Shown in pieces: positions 4,465-31,471 of a DNA stretch of 64,000 nucleotides. Source of the DNA: Couchioplanes caeruleus (GTDB lineage: Bacteria; Actinomycetota; Actinomycetes; Mycobacteriales; Micromonosporaceae); contig NZ_CP092183.1 in NCBI RefSeq assembly GCF_023499255.1, forward strand, positions 255,501-319,500, written 5' to 3'. Numbering within the stretch: position 1 is the stretch's first letter; the number at the start of each line of letters is the position of its first letter. The translations under genes were made by a program, and so were the position numbers. Under the pieces are notes generated by a model. The model ran no database searches. It saw only the letters and a program-made list of their open reading frames with translations, and was not told the origin of the DNA.

Positions 4465-7400
4465 TCAGCTGAGGGATTGGCCCGTGATCGCCGACGTCAG
4501 CACCGTGGCCAGCCCGCCGCCCATCACCGCCGCCGCCAGCCCCACGCTGGCCGCCTTCCACGATCCGCTCGCCCAGCGCAACCCCACCGCCACCAGCATG
4601 CTCAGCACCAGCGAGAGCCCGAACTGCGGCGCCGCAGCGGCCAGGGTGCTCAGGGCGTGTGCCTGCTGGGCGCCGTTGAGGACCAGCATGTACAGGACGA
4701 ACAGCACGACCGGTACGCCGTACCAGACAACGGTGTAGCCGACCGCCGCCAGGGGGCCGCCCGTGTCCTCCTCGAGCTCCTCCTCGGGTTCGAGGAGGTC
4801 GTTCTGGCGTGCCGCCGCCGACGAGAGGGTGCTCACCGGGCGGCGTTCGTACGTGCCCGCCGGGGAGGTCATGACGGCGCCGCGGGGCGGCCATTCCGTG
4901 TCCGGCGGGTCCTGCCAGCTGGCGCCCGTACGGATGATCTCGGTGGCGCTCGCGGAGGCCGAGTTGGCGGCCGGCACCTTGACCGACGCGGAGGCGCCGT
5001 TCTTCGACGGGGGCCGGAACGGGACGAAGTCGCTGGTGCCGAAGCGCCTGGATTCGCCGTCGGCGAGGTCGCTGGACTCCTTGAGTTCGCGCCGCCAGTC
5101 GGCCGTGCCGGCCTCACGGTAGGGGGCCGTCTGCTCGCGGCCGCGCTGCTGCCAGGGTGCGGCTTCGGCGGCCGGACGGATCTCCGTGGCCGCTTCGCCG
5201 GGGGCGGGACCTGCGGCGATGCCGTCCTCAGCGCGCATCTGGCTGCGCCACGCGTCGGTGCGTGCGGCCGCCTCGCCGGGGGCCGGGTCTGCCGCGAGGC
5301 CGCTCTCGGCGCGCATCTGGCTGCGCCACGCGTCGGTGCGTGCGGCCGGTTCGGTGGGTGCGGGTCCTGCGGCGATGCCGTCCTCGGCGCGCATCTGGCT
5401 GCGCCAGGAGTCCGTGCGGGCCGCCGCCTGCGCCTCGGGCCGCCATGCGCCGGGCTGGGAGGACACCGGACGGGTGGGCGTGGAGGACACCGGGCGGGCC
5501 GGTGTCTGGCCGGGACCTGGCTGCGACGACACCGGGCGTACGGCGGCCTGGCCGTATCCGGGCTGCGTGGCCGGGCCGGCGGGCGGGGACGAGACGGGTG
5601 GTGGCTCTCGGCGGTCCTGCTGCCAGGCCGTGGGTGCCGCGGACACGGGACGGTCATCGGGTACGGCGGAGACCGGACGATCCGCCGCCACGTCCCAGCC
5701 GCCCGGTGCCGCCGCCACGTCCCAGCCGCCCGGTGCCGCCGAGACGGGACGGTCGGTGGGGGCGGTGTTCGGGCGGTCGGCCGGCCCCGCGTCGCGTTGC
5801 CAGGCGGCCGGTCCGGGTTCGAGCTCGCGGCGACCGCCCAGGATCGGCCGGGTGGCGGCGTCGCCGTCCCGGCGGTAGACCTCCGGGTCGAGCGGTGTCT
5901 CGGGGGCGGCGCCGAGCTGCAGCGGGCCTTCCGGGGCGCGCCGGCGGCCCACGCCCGGGCGGCCACCGCCCTGGGGAGCTGAGCCGGGACGGTCGTCGTC
6001 TTCAGTGCGGCGGCGGCGGCGGGGCTCGCCGCTCTCGAGCTCGAGCGGGCCGCCCGGGACGTCGTCGCGCGTACGGGACCGGGGGCCGCGGCGGGGTCGT
6101 CCGTCGTCGTCCCGGTCGTCCTCGTCGTCTTCGTCGTCCTCGACCTCGGCGCGATGCCACTGGCCGGTGTCGCTGTCGCGCAGCCAGACGTCCGACTCCG
6201 GGTCGCGGTGCCAGGCGCCGGACTCGAGCTCGCGGGTCCAGCTGGTGTCGGGCTCGCGCCTGCGGGCGTACGCCGCCGGCCCCTCGCGTCGCGGAATGCC
6301 GGCGCCGCGCTGGGCGTCCAGGCCGCGACGGGGCTCGCGTTGCGTTTCCGGGCCGCGCGGGCGGGCGGCACGGCGTCCGCGGGTGCCTTCCGCCTCACGC
6401 TGCCAGGAGCCGGTGTCGGTGCGGCCGCGCGGTTCGTCGTCGCGCCGCCAGGAGCCGGTGTCGGAGCGGCTGTCCGTACGCGCCTCGTCGTCGGGCTGCC
6501 ACGAGCTGCGGCGGCCGCCGCGCTGCCGCGTACCCGTGTCCGGGTCGTCGTCGTCGCGCTGCCAGGAGCCGGGCTCCGACCGCGCGCCGGATTCGATCTC
6601 CCGCTGCCAGGAGCCGGTGTCCGTACGGTCGGCCCGGCTGCGCCGGCCGCCGTCGCCCGGCCGGGTGCCGGTGTCGCGCTGCCAGGAGCCGGTGTCCGTA
6701 CGGCTCTGCCAGCCGCCACCGTCGCGCTCGCGGGGCTGCAGCGGCAGCGGGATGACGCCGGTCTCCGACGCGCTCTGCGCCCACGGGTCCGAGGCGGGGC
6801 CCGGCTCGGGGTCGCGCCGCCAGGAGCCGGTGTCACGCCGTCCGTCGCGGGTCTGGTCGCCGCTGCGCCAACTGTCGGCCGGCGGCTCGGCGGAGCGCCG
6901 TCCGTCGCGGTCGGGGTCCTGAGCACGCCAGCCGGTGCCCGTCTCGTCCACGCCACGGCGGCTGCCGGTCGTCGGGGCGCTGCTCTGCCAGCTGTTCGTG
7001 GTCGAGGTGGTCCGCCAGCTGTCCGGCTGGTCGTCGGCGTCGCGGCGCCAGCTGGGACTGTCCGCGACCGGGTCCTGGAACGCCGGGATGCTGCCGGTGT
7101 CGGTGTGCCCGGCCCAGTTGTCGGCGTCCGAATGGACCGTCCAGCCGGTGCCTCCGCTCGTACGGGAACCGGGCTCGGCGGCCCGCCGGCGACCCACCTG
7201 GCGTGACCCGTCGTCGAACCCGCTCTGGCGACGCCACTGCGCGCGGTCGTCCTCCCGGACGAGGTGGCGGCCGTCGTCGAAGGTGCCCGGCGCCGACCGG
7301 GTCCCGGTGTACGCGGTCGGCGGCTGCGGATCTTGCCAGCCGGGCGAGCTTTCTGCCGGCCGGTCCGCGGGCGCCTCCCGGCTCGTACCGTTCTCCCGCC

Positions 7401-8613
7401 GGGACGAGCGGCCGGTGTCGGTGAACTGCTGCCAGCTCGGCCGGCCGTCCCACGACGGGCGCGGCGCGTCGGCCGGCTGTTGCCAGGTGGGCGTGGGAGG
7501 GGGCGGGGTCGGCGGTGTGGCGGACGGCGCGGCGAACTGCTGCCACGACGGGCGGTCCTCGGCGGCCTGCCAGCTCGGCGCCGCGTCGGCGGGCCGCTGC
7601 TGCCAGCTCGGCGTGGCGTCTGCGGGCTGCTGCTGCCAGGCCGGAGCCGCGTCGGCGGGCCGCTGCTGCCAGGTCGGCGCCGGGTCCGCCGGTCGCTGCC
7701 AGCTCGGGGCGGCGTCGGCGGGTCGTTGCTGCCAGGTGGGCGGCGGGTCCTCGGCGCGCTGCCACGACGGCGTCGGGTCGGCGGGACGCTCCCACGGCGG
7801 TGCGGCGTCGGCCGGTCGCTGCTGCCAGCTCGGCGTGGCGTCGGCGGGCTGCTGCCAGCTCCGTGCGGCGTCGGCGGGCTGCTGCCAGCTCGGAGCGGCG
7901 TCGGCCGGTCGCTGCTGCCAGGACGGGCTTGCCTCCGGGGCGGACCGGTCGCGTCGCCAGCCGGGAGTGTCGTCGGGGGTGGAGGGCTGCTGCCAGCTCG
8001 GCGTGGGCGGGTCGCCCGACTCGGGAGTCGGCCAGGCGGTGCCGGAGATCGCCGGGAGCCGGGTGGGCGGCTCGACCGGCGGGACGAAGCCGTTGGCGTC
8101 GCCCGACTGCCACGCCTCGGTCGTCGTGCGCCATCCGTGCGTGCCGGACGCGGAGCGCCATTCGGTCGTCTGACGCCAGCGGGCGCTGTCGGTGGACCGC
8201 CACTCCGCTGTCGACGTACGCCATCCGACGCCGTCGGCGGGAATCGGCGGCCGACCGGTCGCGGCGACGTCGGACCAGCGGCTGACCGTGCCGGATCCGG
8301 ACCGCTCGACCGCCTGGTCCTCGTTCTGCGCCCACGCCTCGGCGCGCAACGACCAGGCGACGGCCTCCGGAATCGGCTGCATGCTGCCGGTGTCTGCGAC
8401 CGATCCGGTGCCCCACACGGGCGCGCCGGGCTCGACGATTTGGGAGGAATCGGGACTTTCCGGGCTCTCACGGGTGGACCAGGGCTCCGCGGCGCTCCTC
8501 TCCCGCGGCAGGCGGGCGCCGTAGTCCCACTCCCGTTGGTCCACCTGAAAAGCGTGACGTGCGTTCCCCGGATCTGCAACGCCCTGGGGCGATGGCTTCG
8601 TCACGGGCCGCAC
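4465..8613 (-). CDS. Giant disordered Trp-repeat membrane protein
   Basis: 1382 residues. The first ~1290 are predicted disordered, rich in Arg, Asp, Pro, Ser, Trp and Gly. They contain three repeat families: 10-11-residue units such as PSWQQRPADAA (about 12 copies, DNA 7530-7930), DTGSWQRD-type units (DNA about 6180-6890), and a 26-residue unit in three copies (DNA about 5200-5440). An acidic DDEDDEDDRDDD stretch lies near DNA 6120. The C-terminus has three hydrophobic helices (YTVVWYGVPVVLFVLYMLVL, APQFGLSLVLSMLVAVGL, AASVGLAAAVMGGGLATVLT). The GTG at 8613 has GGAGG about 10 nt upstream; an ATG at 8646 is also in frame. Function unknown. The three-codon periodicity of the repeats and the TM domain support real coding. 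Confidence 0.75.
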   Translation of the reverse strand: MRPVTKPSPQGVADPGNARHAFQVDQREWDYGARLPRERSAAEPWSTRESPESPDSSQIVEPGAPVWGTGSVADTGSMQPIPEAVAWSLRAEAWAQNEDQAVERSGSGTVSRWSDVAATGRPPIPADGVGWRTSTAEWRSTDSARWRQTTEWRSASGTHGWRTTTEAWQSGDANGFVPPVEPPTRLPAISGTAWPTPESGDPPTPSWQQPSTPDDTPGWRRDRSAPEASPSWQQRPADAAPSWQQPADAARSWQQPADATPSWQQRPADAAPPWERPADPTPSWQRAEDPPPTWQQRPADAAPSWQRPADPAPTWQQRPADAAPAWQQQPADATPSWQQRPADAAPSWQAAEDRPSWQQFAAPSATPPTPPPPTPTWQQPADAPRPSWDGRPSWQQFTDTGRSSRRENGTSREAPADRPAESSPGWQDPQPPTAYTGTRSAPGTFDDGRHLVREDDRAQWRRQSGFDDGSRQVGRRRAAEPGSRTSGGTGWTVHSDADNWAGHTDTGSIPAFQDPVADSPSWRRDADDQPDSWRTTSTTNSWQSSAPTTGSRRGVDETGTGWRAQDPDRDGRRSAEPPADSWRSGDQTRDGRRDTGSWRRDPEPGPASDPWAQSASETGVIPLPLQPRERDGGGWQSRTDTGSWQRDTGTRPGDGGRRSRADRTDTGSWQREIESGARSEPGSWQRDDDDPDTGTRQRGGRRSSWQPDDEARTDSRSDTGSWRRDDEPRGRTDTGSWQREAEGTRGRRAARPRGPETQREPRRGLDAQRGAGIPRREGPAAYARRREPDTSWTRELESGAWHRDPESDVWLRDSDTGQWHRAEVEDDEDDEDDRDDDGRPRRGPRSRTRDDVPGGPLELESGEPRRRRRTEDDDRPGSAPQGGGRPGVGRRRAPEGPLQLGAAPETPLDPEVYRRDGDAATRPILGGRRELEPGPAAWQRDAGPADRPNTAPTDRPVSAAPGGWDVAAAPGGWDVAADRPVSAVPDDRPVSAAPTAWQQDRREPPPVSSPPAGPATQPGYGQAAVRPVSSQPGPGQTPARPVSSTPTRPVSSQPGAWRPEAQAAARTDSWRSQMRAEDGIAAGPAPTEPAARTDAWRSQMRAESGLAADPAPGEAAARTDAWRSQMRAEDGIAAGPAPGEAATEIRPAAEAAPWQQRGREQTAPYREAGTADWRRELKESSDLADGESRRFGTSDFVPFRPPSKNGASASVKVPAANSASASATEIIRTGASWQDPPDTEWPPRGAVMTSPAGTYERRPVSTLSSAAARQNDLLEPEEELEEDTGGPLAAVGYTVVWYGVPVVLFVLYMLVLNGAQQAHALSTLAAAAPQFGLSLVLSMLVAVGLRWASGSWKAASVGLAAAVMGGGLATVLTSAITGQSLS
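5200..5440 (-). repeat. Three 78-bp in-frame coding repeats
   Basis: GCGCGCATCTGG recurs at 5231, 5309 and 5387, exactly 78 bp apart. Each unit encodes 26 residues containing ARTDAWRSQMRAE. Copies differ at a few positions, indicating older in-frame duplications inside the Trp-repeat protein gene. Confidence 0.9.
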
Positions 8614-8688
8614 CTTTTTATTCCCTCCACACGCTGGGGACATCAAAAACCCAGGTCACCGGGGTACGCCGGGCAGCATCCCCAAGCG

Positions 8689-8764
8689 TTGTACACAGGC
8701 TGTGCACAGGGCTGCACACAGGTTCGGGGGCATTGTCCACAACTTGTCCCGAGGCTCGTCCACC
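8689..8764 (+). promoter_or_regulatory. Phased array of six DnaA-box-like sites
   Basis: Same-orientation nonamers start at 8689 (TTGTACACA), 8700 (CTGTGCACA), 8712 (CTGCACACA), 8733 (TTGTCCACA), 8744 (TTGTCCCGA) and 8756 (TCGTCCACC). Spacings are 11, 12, 21, 11 and 12 bp, so all lie on one helix face, as two triplets 44 bp apart. TTGTCCACA matches the DnaA box TTATCCACA at 8 of 9 positions; the others match at 5-7. The array lies 76 nt upstream of the Trp-repeat protein start and about 450 nt before dnaB. DnaA control of one or both genes is inferred. Confidence 0.6.
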
Positions 8765-8994
8765 GGCCTGCTTGGGCCGATGACGTGCAGCTTCGTATGG
8801 TTACCCGCGCCGGATCACGCCTCAGGGCCGACCCGGTCCGCGCCAAGCGACGTTTCGGGCGGTTCGGTGGGATGGATCACCCGTCGGTGGGCGCGCTCAC
8901 CCGAAAGTGTCGTACCGGGGTTGTTTGATCGACTCAGGAGGCGCAGGGTGGGTCGGTTTGCGCGGCCCGGGTCGGGTGGACCGGGCGCCGCAGG

Positions 8995-9190
8995 CACGCG
9001 ACGCCGAGCCCGGCGTTGCACCACGACGGGGCGAGCCGGGCGTTGCACCATGGCGGCGAGCTCGGCGCTGAACGCGAGGCCGCGCGCGGCGTTGCAGGAC
9101 GGCGCTGAGCTTGGCGTTGCAGGACGGCGCTGAGCTTGGCGCTGCACGTGGGGTCGCGCTCGGCGTGGCACCACGGCGCCGGGCCGGACG
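8995..9190. repeat. Degenerate 25-bp tandem array upstream of dnaB
   Basis: Two identical adjacent copies of a 25-bp unit beginning GGCGTTGCAGGACGGCGCTG start at 9088 and 9113, and a third begins at 9138. Diverged copies (GGCGTTGCACCACGACGGGG and similar) extend back to about 8995 and forward to about 9190. It ends just before the dnaB Shine-Dalgarno. The rest of the 8614-9216 gap holds the DnaA-box array and no gene. Confidence 0.75.
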
Positions 9191-9216
9191 CTGCACACGA
9201 GGAGGGGGAGGTCGGA

Positions 9217-10659
9217 GTGTCGATCACCGATGACGCACGGCCGGAGTCCCGGCAGCAGTCGCCCGGCGGCGGGCGACCGGCCGGTGGCGGGCGCCCTCCC
9301 GGTGGTGGCGGACCCCCGGCCGACGGCGGCTTCGACAAGACGCCGCCACAGGACATCGCCGCCGAGCAGAGCGTGCTCGGCGGCATGCTGCTGTCCAAGG
9401 ACGCCATCGCCGACGTCGTGGAGATCCTGAAGACCCACGACTTCTACCGTCCGGTGCACGCGACGATCTTCGAGATCATCCTCGACCTGTACGGGCGCGG
9501 AGAGCCGGCCGACGGCGTCACGGTCGCGGCGGCGCTGGCCGACTCCGGTGACCTGCAGCGCATCGGCGGGGTGCCGTATCTGCACACCCTCATCGAGAGC
9601 GTGCCCACCGCGGCCAACGCCGCGTACTACGCGCGGATCGTCTCCGAGCGGGCCGTGCTGCGCCGGCTGGTCGAGGCGGGCACGAAGATCGTGCAGCTCG
9701 GGTACGGCGCGAACGGCCACGGCGGCCGGGACGTGGACGACATCGTCGACCTGGCTCAGCAGGCCATCTACGACGTCACCGAGAACCGGGTCAGCGAGGA
9801 CTTCGCCACGCTGGGCGACATGCTGCAGCCGACCCTCGACGAGATCGAGGCCGTCGGCGCGTCGGGCGGCATGATGACCGGCGTACCCACCGGCTTCGCC
9901 GACCTGGACCGGCTCCTCAACGGCCTGCACCCCGGCCAGCTGATCATCGTGGCTGGGCGTCCCGGTCTCGGCAAGTCGACCGTGAGCATGGACTTCGCCC
10001 GCAACGCGGCGATCCGGTCCAACTGCGCCAGCGCCATCTTCTCCCTCGAAATGAGCAAGATCGAGATGGTGATGCGTCTGCTCTCCGCGGAGGCGCGCGT
10101 ACCGCTGCACTCGCTGCGCTCCGGTCAGCTCTCCGATGACGACTGGACCAAGCTCGCCCGCCGGATGGGCGAGATCAGTGAGGCGCCGATCTTCGTCGAC
10201 GACACCCCGAGCATGAACCTCATGGAGATCCGCGCGAAGGCCCGGCGCCTCAAACAGCGCCACAACCTCAAGCTCCTGGTGATCGACTACCTCCAGCTCA
10301 TGACGTCACCGAAGAAGACGGAGAGCCGCCAGCAGGAGGTCTCCGAGCTGTCCCGAGGCCTCAAGCTGCTGGCCAAGGAGATCGAGTGCCCGGTGATCGC
10401 GGTGAGCCAGCTGAACCGAGGCCCGGAGCAGCGTACGGACAAGCGCCCGCAGCTGTCCGACCTGCGTGAGTCAGGCTCGATCGAGCAGGACGCCGACGTG
10501 GTGCTGCTCCTGCACCGCGACGACTACTACGACAAGGAGTCGCCGCGGGCGGGCGAGGCGGACTTCATCGTGGCGAAGCACCGAAACGGCCCGACCGACA
10601 CGGTGACGGTGGCGGCGCAGCTTCACCTGTCCCGCTTCGTCGACATGGCGATCGTCTGA
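9217..10659 (+). CDS. dnaB: Replicative DNA helicase
   Basis: 480 residues. After a Gly/Pro-rich N-terminal extension (about 1-45) comes the DnaB N-domain (DIAAEQSVLGGMLLSKDAIA). The RecA-like helicase domain follows, with Walker A GRPGLGKST (about 247), IFSLEMSK, Walker B LLVIDYLQLM (about 353), SQLNRGPEQR and SDLRESGSIEQDADVV. It unwinds DNA ahead of the replisome. The GTG at 9217 has GGAGGGGGAG six nt upstream. It is not in the rplI operon: a large divergent gene and a repeat-rich gap intervene. Confidence 0.97.
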   Translation: MSITDDARPESRQQSPGGGRPAGGGRPPGGGGPPADGGFDKTPPQDIAAEQSVLGGMLLSKDAIADVVEILKTHDFYRPVHATIFEIILDLYGRGEPADGVTVAAALADSGDLQRIGGVPYLHTLIESVPTAANAAYYARIVSERAVLRRLVEAGTKIVQLGYGANGHGGRDVDDIVDLAQQAIYDVTENRVSEDFATLGDMLQPTLDEIEAVGASGGMMTGVPTGFADLDRLLNGLHPGQLIIVAGRPGLGKSTVSMDFARNAAIRSNCASAIFSLEMSKIEMVMRLLSAEARVPLHSLRSGQLSDDDWTKLARRMGEISEAPIFVDDTPSMNLMEIRAKARRLKQRHNLKLLVIDYLQLMTSPKKTESRQQEVSELSRGLKLLAKEIECPVIAVSQLNRGPEQRTDKRPQLSDLRESGSIEQDADVVLLLHRDDYYDKESPRAGEADFIVAKHRNGPTDTVTVAAQLHLSRFVDMAIV

Positions 10660-31422: not shown

Positions 31423-31471
31423 TTGTCCACATCAGGGCTTCCCGCCTGTCATGATCTTGGAGTTATCCACA
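31423..31471 (+). promoter_or_regulatory. Two DnaA boxes upstream of the DUF4192 gene
   Basis: TTGTCCACA (31423-31431) and the exact consensus TTATCCACA (31463-31471), same orientation, starts 40 bp apart, 54-102 nt before the ATG at 31525. Confidence 0.5.

Follow-up and report, generated by a model that had tools for sequence, protein, structure and literature searches.

In Mycobacterium tuberculosis, DnaA binds upstream of the replicative helicase gene dnaB in vitro, and that site is one of five regions found to be highly enriched; ChIP-seq in Mycobacterium smegmatis recovered the homologs of all five, and an M. tuberculosis DnaA variant with reduced binding under-expresses dnaB (passages of PMC7738170). 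According to the authors of that paper, the mycobacterial result agrees with Caulobacter, a member of a distant phylum in which DnaA is likewise bound upstream of the helicase gene. The control of dnaB by DnaA is therefore known in kind, although the passages of PMC7738170 considered here give neither a phased array of boxes nor a promoter geometry for dnaB.

Here we describe a locus of Couchioplanes caeruleus in which six putative DnaA boxes stand in helical phase in front of dnaB. Relative to those passages on mycobacteria, loci of this Micromonosporaceae type add an array of six to seven boxes with a step of 11 to 12 bp and a fixed distance to the promoter, and box clusters beside dnaB extend class-wide. 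DnaA boxes away from the origin are shared with Escherichia coli datA/DARS and the clusters of Bacillus subtilis, which act on the activity or level of DnaA and are not known to be tied to a dnaB promoter, and with Streptomyces, for which clusters outside oriC, one of them affecting replication, were reportedly described by Smulczyk-Krawczyszyn et al. in 2006. No description of a phased array at a fixed promoter distance was found in the literature surveyed, an incomplete search, and both the phasing and the constant promoter geometry seem to be new detail. From the letters of the locus and its relatives, we consider that the array is probably the upstream regulatory region of the dnaB promoter, on which a DnaA filament, probably an activating one, would assemble.

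Putative DnaA boxes upstream of dnaB

The window (the whole stretch of DNA analyzed, 64,000 nucleotides, C1:255501-319500 of the 8.42-Mb genome) carries dnaB in ORF 9136-10659, with Pfam matches to DnaB_C (E 3e-106) and the DnaB N-terminal domain (E 2e-35). With dnaB as query, the 80 best of 238 relatives were gathered as named loci (L032-L111), and all 80 were counted; among these, the closest named dnaB belonged to Pseudosporangium ferrugineum (98%), ahead of Actinoplanes-type Micromonosporaceae. Per-box counts required the expected place within 1 bp and at most two mismatches, which 1/400 control placements attained. The features of the region, in window coordinates, are as follows.

4465-8613, - strand: divergent Trp-rich repeat gene; the start codon is our choice.
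8623-8631, + strand: upstream DnaA-like box, CCCTCCACA, three mismatches here; 66 bp before box 1.
8635-8643, - strand: inverted DnaA-like box, ATGTCCCCA, two mismatches; at most two mismatches in 39/80 relatives versus 4/400 control placements.
8689-8697, + strand: putative DnaA box 1, TTGTACACA; at most two mismatches in 80/80 relatives, at most one in 70/80.
8700-8708, + strand: putative DnaA box 2, CTGTGCACA; at most two mismatches in 78/80, identical to CTGTGCACA in 63/80.
8712-8720, + strand: putative DnaA box 3, the weakest, CTGCACACA; at most two mismatches in 28/80, at most three in 72/80.
8733-8741, + strand: putative DnaA box 4, TTGTCCACA, a perfect actinobacterial box; at most two mismatches in 80/80, at most one in 51/80.
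8744-8752, + strand: DnaA-like box 5, TTGTCCCGA; at most two mismatches in 78/80, identical in 60/80.
8756-8764, + strand: DnaA-like box 6, TCGTCCACC; at most two mismatches in 72/80; 7 bp before the -35 element.
8772-8777, + strand: -35 element TTGGGC of the inferred dnaB promoter; position conserved in relatives.
8796-8801, + strand: -10 element TATGGT of the inferred dnaB promoter; columns conserved.
9217-10659, + strand: dnaB, replicative helicase (480 aa), the inferred target; the start codon is our choice.

The six nonamers of the array all lie on the + strand, with starts at 8689, 8700, 8712, 8733, 8744, and 8756. Start-to-start steps are 11, 12, 21, 11, and 12 bp, and box 4 begins 44 bp after box 1; the two triplets described in an earlier note on this DNA were thus recovered, each nonamer where it had been placed. 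In order, the boxes show 1, 2, 3, 0, 2, and 2 mismatches to TTRTCCACA. The note had called TTGTCCACA an 8/9 match, which is true only against the E. coli box, since Table 1 of PMC4285127 lists this nonamer as the high-affinity box of M. tuberculosis and Streptomyces coelicolor; against the actinobacterial box, the match is perfect. Absent from the note were the conserved pair at 8623 (+) and 8635 (-), a weak match at 8676 (three mismatches), and the promoter-like element at 8772-8801. Versions of the 8623 box nearer the consensus, TCGTCCACA or TTATCCACA, occur in relatives, and at its offset (±1) a box with at most two mismatches was present in 43/80 relatives versus 1/400 control placements.

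With a free-spacing chain score whose permitted steps (10-13 or 20-24 bp) were picked after the array had been seen, the array was the top six-box chain in 400 kb of the genome, with 10 mismatches in 54 positions. The runner-up chains had 12 mismatches (at 209283, in the oriC-like cluster treated below, and at 328972) and 14 mismatches (at 209443), whereas 17 to 20 mismatches remained in the top chain of every one of 25 first-order Markov simulations, each 400 kb long. This score is the one to trust, a fixed-spacing template score being post hoc. Because of the way the step set was picked, conservation is stronger evidence than the chain score.

Other groups of boxes were seen in the same genome. 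Within the window, exact boxes at 31423-31431 (TTGTCCACA) and 31463-31471 (TTATCCACA) lie on the same strand, 40 bp apart, beside ORFs. Outside it, C1:328944-329012 holds four - strand boxes, three of them exact, and is the best chain after the dnaB array in the 400 kb examined, the oriC-like cluster aside. A further cluster, also outside the window, at C1:224262-224431, is interleaved with two copies of TTTCACGTGAAAC, which resembles a parS site; given this interleaving, DnaA and chromosome-partition sites may share that region.

Conservation of the array and of a promoter-like element

The earlier note had suggested looking in relatives for boxes that are kept while their surroundings drift, and this pattern was found, so that the case named there as refuting, nonamers that relatives do not conserve, did not arise. 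Across the 80 loci, the box positions align with hardly a gap, whereas anything from 94 to 593 bp separates box 4 from the dnaB match. All six boxes were present with at most three mismatches in 70/80 loci versus 0/560 control placements in the same loci, although the 80 loci are related and hence do not count as 80 independent witnesses. Eight of the 10 loci that failed did so at box 3 only; the other two were L064 (box 6) and L093 (box 2). In 15 further genus loci, outside the 80, the anchor formed by boxes 4 to 6 was found throughout (15/15; 0 to 4 mismatches of 31), and the six-box test was passed by 11/15. A strict version of the box 4-6 pattern (at most three mismatches) has a single occurrence in the Couchioplanes genome; of 121 genomes of the order, 12 carry it, each of them one of the 15 own-family genomes in that draw, the remaining 3 of which lack the pattern.

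Variation within the array was also seen. In 14/80 loci, several of them Micromonospora, the register of the gap between boxes 3 and 4 is filled by a box-like nonamer with at most two mismatches, mostly CTGTCCACC. In L043 and L070, an exact TTGTCCACA precedes the ATGTCCACA of box 4 by 32 rather than 44 bp, and L070 has box 5 twice, 11 bp apart. Some of these spacing changes preserve the helical phase.

After a 7-bp gap, box 6 is followed by a promoter-like element that faces dnaB, TTGGGC-18 bp-TATGGT (8772-8801). The form TTG-(16-18)-TAnnnT was present in 80/80 loci, its position against box 4 deviating by at most 1 bp (a count made without a shuffled control), and 71/80 matched the window exactly in both placement and spacer length. 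A near-consensus sigma-70 promoter scan of positions 8500-9300 returned 0 matches, which fits the weak -35 hexamer yet lends the promoter no support; its assignment is based on conservation instead. Transcription would start near 8808, relative to which the box centers fall at about -48, -60, -71, -92, -104, and -115. As expected of a DnaA-regulated promoter, at least two boxes lie beside the promoter thus placed by conservation, and the boxes are conserved together with the target gene in relatives.

The dnaB leader itself is strongly variable in length among relatives. Between the inferred promoter and dnaB it contains a GC-rich tandem repeat (8996-9196; unit of about 25 bp, 7.8 copies), and a search of 8400-9400 against Rfam (E ≤ 1) gave no RNA element match. 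A second conserved leader element, GTGTCGTAC-8 bp-TTTGAT, lies at 8907-8929, its 16-base core being found with at most two mismatches in 31/80 relatives, a count made without a control. The mycobacterial damage-inducible promoter has the form TTGTCRGTG-8-TAnnnT, to which we take this element to bear a faint likeness, and it is possibly a second dnaB promoter. Within the coding sequence, the dnaB match is interrupted behind approximately residue 255 or 424 in one long frame in G012, G008, G024, G154, and other genomes, as would be expected from inteins.

Proposed regulatory role of the array

We propose that DnaA, probably in its ATP form, would occupy the strong boxes 1 and 4 and then extend by cooperative binding to the weaker boxes 2, 3, 5, and 6, which are in phase. 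The resulting short filament would lie on one face of the DNA, end 7 bp before the weak -35 hexamer, and contact RNA polymerase from upstream, thereby increasing dnaB transcription and tying the supply of DnaB to DnaA activity and replication initiation. Activators typically touch RNA polymerase from upstream positions like those of the box centers. Six phased boxes upstream of the likely start signal of dnaB, together with layouts that recur in relatives, suggest that DnaA probably controls the supply of this helicase, which DnaA itself loads. Activation is the most likely mode, since the boxes stop short of the -35 element and the M. tuberculosis variant lowers dnaB expression. Among the options raised in the earlier note, control of dnaB emerged as the best supported, as the array abuts the dnaB-facing promoter-like element and mycobacterial DnaA binds upstream of dnaB (passages of PMC7738170).

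The array could instead be a titration or timing site that soaks up DnaA once this early-replicating region is duplicated, its closeness to a promoter being secondary, a reading that we regard as possible but would adopt only tentatively. TTRTCCACA is over-represented in the genome, with 87 sites versus 16 for the reversed pattern. By hand count, 77/87 of these sites versus 7/16 control sites fall in the origin-proximal half (origin near 0.21 Mb); DnaA boxes thus form a gradient toward the origin, and other clusters exist near oriC. Both observations favor titration, for which the DnaA-box clusters of B. subtilis and E. coli datA are precedents. A pure sink, however, needs no fixed promoter distance, and this distance is kept within 1 bp in 80/80 loci; moreover, box 4 is the only exact TTRTCCACA of the array. 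Titration may take place alongside control of dnaB.

Negative feedback, in which DnaA would repress dnaB from the array, appears unlikely to us. DnaA represses several promoters, including its own, and a weak - strand match with three mismatches at 8796 overlaps the -10 element. Against this, all six boxes lie upstream of the -35 element, and no box with at most one mismatch is found between the promoter and dnaB at the Couchioplanes locus. In addition, dnaB expression goes down, rather than up, with the weaker-binding M. tuberculosis variant (passages of PMC7738170).

The earlier note had named dnaB and/or the divergent Trp-repeat gene as the target. The array lies about 75 to 150 bp upstream of the likely start of the latter, and the conserved pair at 8623/8635 is nearer to this gene than the array is. 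Part of the gene sits between rplI and dnaB in most relatives (its C-terminal 200 residues matched in 68/80 loci and its N-terminal 110 in 35/80), the C-terminal match being nearer dnaB in Micromonospora, where the gene is shorter; the ORF concerned (4465-8646) had no match in Pfam. In five Salinispora loci (L071, L075, L076, L105, and L106), however, neither part of the gene matched, and rplI ends about 450 to 530 bp before the dnaB match. These loci nevertheless retain the array (5/5; box 1 at -250), which argues that the array goes with dnaB, and the distance of the array to the dnaB-facing promoter is fixed. The Trp-repeat gene is therefore set back as the main target and is probably a neighbor. 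The dnaB half of the claim stood, a role for the Trp-repeat gene is not needed (though control of this neighbor may be added at other loci), and we rate control of this gene, or of both genes, as rather improbable.

It is very doubtful that the sites belong to another DNA-binding protein and resemble DnaA boxes partly by coincidence, above all at boxes 2, 5, and 6. Box 2 and the next G form a perfect palindrome, CTGTGCACAG, that is kept in most relatives; the palindrome also makes box 2 readable as a box on the - strand. Box 5 is poor as a DnaA box and has no ACA end, yet it is nearly invariant and among the most conserved columns, so that another protein could share this site. On the other side, boxes 1 and 4 have at most two mismatches in 80/80 loci (the best 80 of 238), the step of 11 to 12 bp is DnaA-like, and binding of mycobacterial DnaA upstream of dnaB is in print (passages of PMC7738170).

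As to replication origins, the single DnaA family match of the genome (DNA-binding signature GGRDHTT) is at C1:210862-211344, about 53 kb from the array. We took as oriC a 12-box cluster at C1:209086-209552, about 55 kb from the array, with which it shares the box type and in-phase runs; the cluster differs in having both box orientations, an AT-rich stretch inside, and dnaA beside it. The array has a GC content of 60.5%, and the lowest-GC 31-mer of positions 8600-9216 is 48% GC, compared with 35% within the oriC-like cluster. Although its phased boxes adjoin a replication gene, a secondary or former origin at the array is thus extremely improbable, as it has no AT-rich unwinding element, neither dnaA nor dnaN is adjacent, and an ordinary oriC-like cluster exists elsewhere. 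The earlier note had correctly described the array as lying away from dnaA/dnaN and lacking such an element, and its preference for regulation or titration over an origin is borne out.

Reach across Actinomycetes and significance

For a wider view, 40 loci were chosen from 148 genomes for family spread and a usable upstream stretch, before any boxes were counted. The counts cover 39 loci, drawn from 15 further families of the class; L132, an f1 locus of the same family, was left out, and L177 comprises 666 bases only. Boxes with at most one mismatch numbered 141 in the 21,450 bp beside dnaB and 18 in 43,139 bp of more distant upstream DNA, the reversed motif giving 9 near and 5 far. At least two boxes lie beside dnaB in 37/39 loci. 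A promoter of the same form starts no more than 60 bp after a box in 22/39 loci, versus 20/1950 random placements drawn further upstream in the same loci, where the base composition may differ from that of the dnaB side; in the other 17/39, no same-form promoter follows a box. An inverted box is followed 5 bp later by the promoter in 8/8 loci of family f19 and 4 bp later in 5/5 of family f18.

Outside the class, 20 loci were selected from 60 by the same rule (family spread and usable upstream stretch), again before counting. Here, 18 boxes were near dnaB versus 1 far (reversed control, 2 and 4), and their occurrence was patchy, with at least two boxes in 5/20 loci; conservation of dnaB box clusters across the phylum was accordingly rejected.

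Tentatively, and with the odds against it as a general rule, an orisome-like filament whose end lies a constant few bp upstream of the -35 element could gate dnaB transcription across Actinomycetes, the helicase being made once ATP-DnaA fills the weak boxes. If true, this would be an ancient feed-forward loop from initiator to helicase, built, as origins are, from strong anchor boxes and weak filling boxes. A comparable arrangement shared by Micromonosporaceae and no fewer than two further families (f19, f18) would mark an old link in actinobacteria, a group that includes antibiotic producers. With its roughly 130 bp, the region also offers a compact test bed for the way in which DnaA filaments communicate with RNA polymerase, and natural variants exist in the extra box of some Micromonospora and in the box 1 of L043 and L070, which is displaced by close to one helical unit. 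Were DnaA to switch on dnaB from a fixed, phased filament, the initiator would set both the timing of replication and the amount of helicase that is ready for it.
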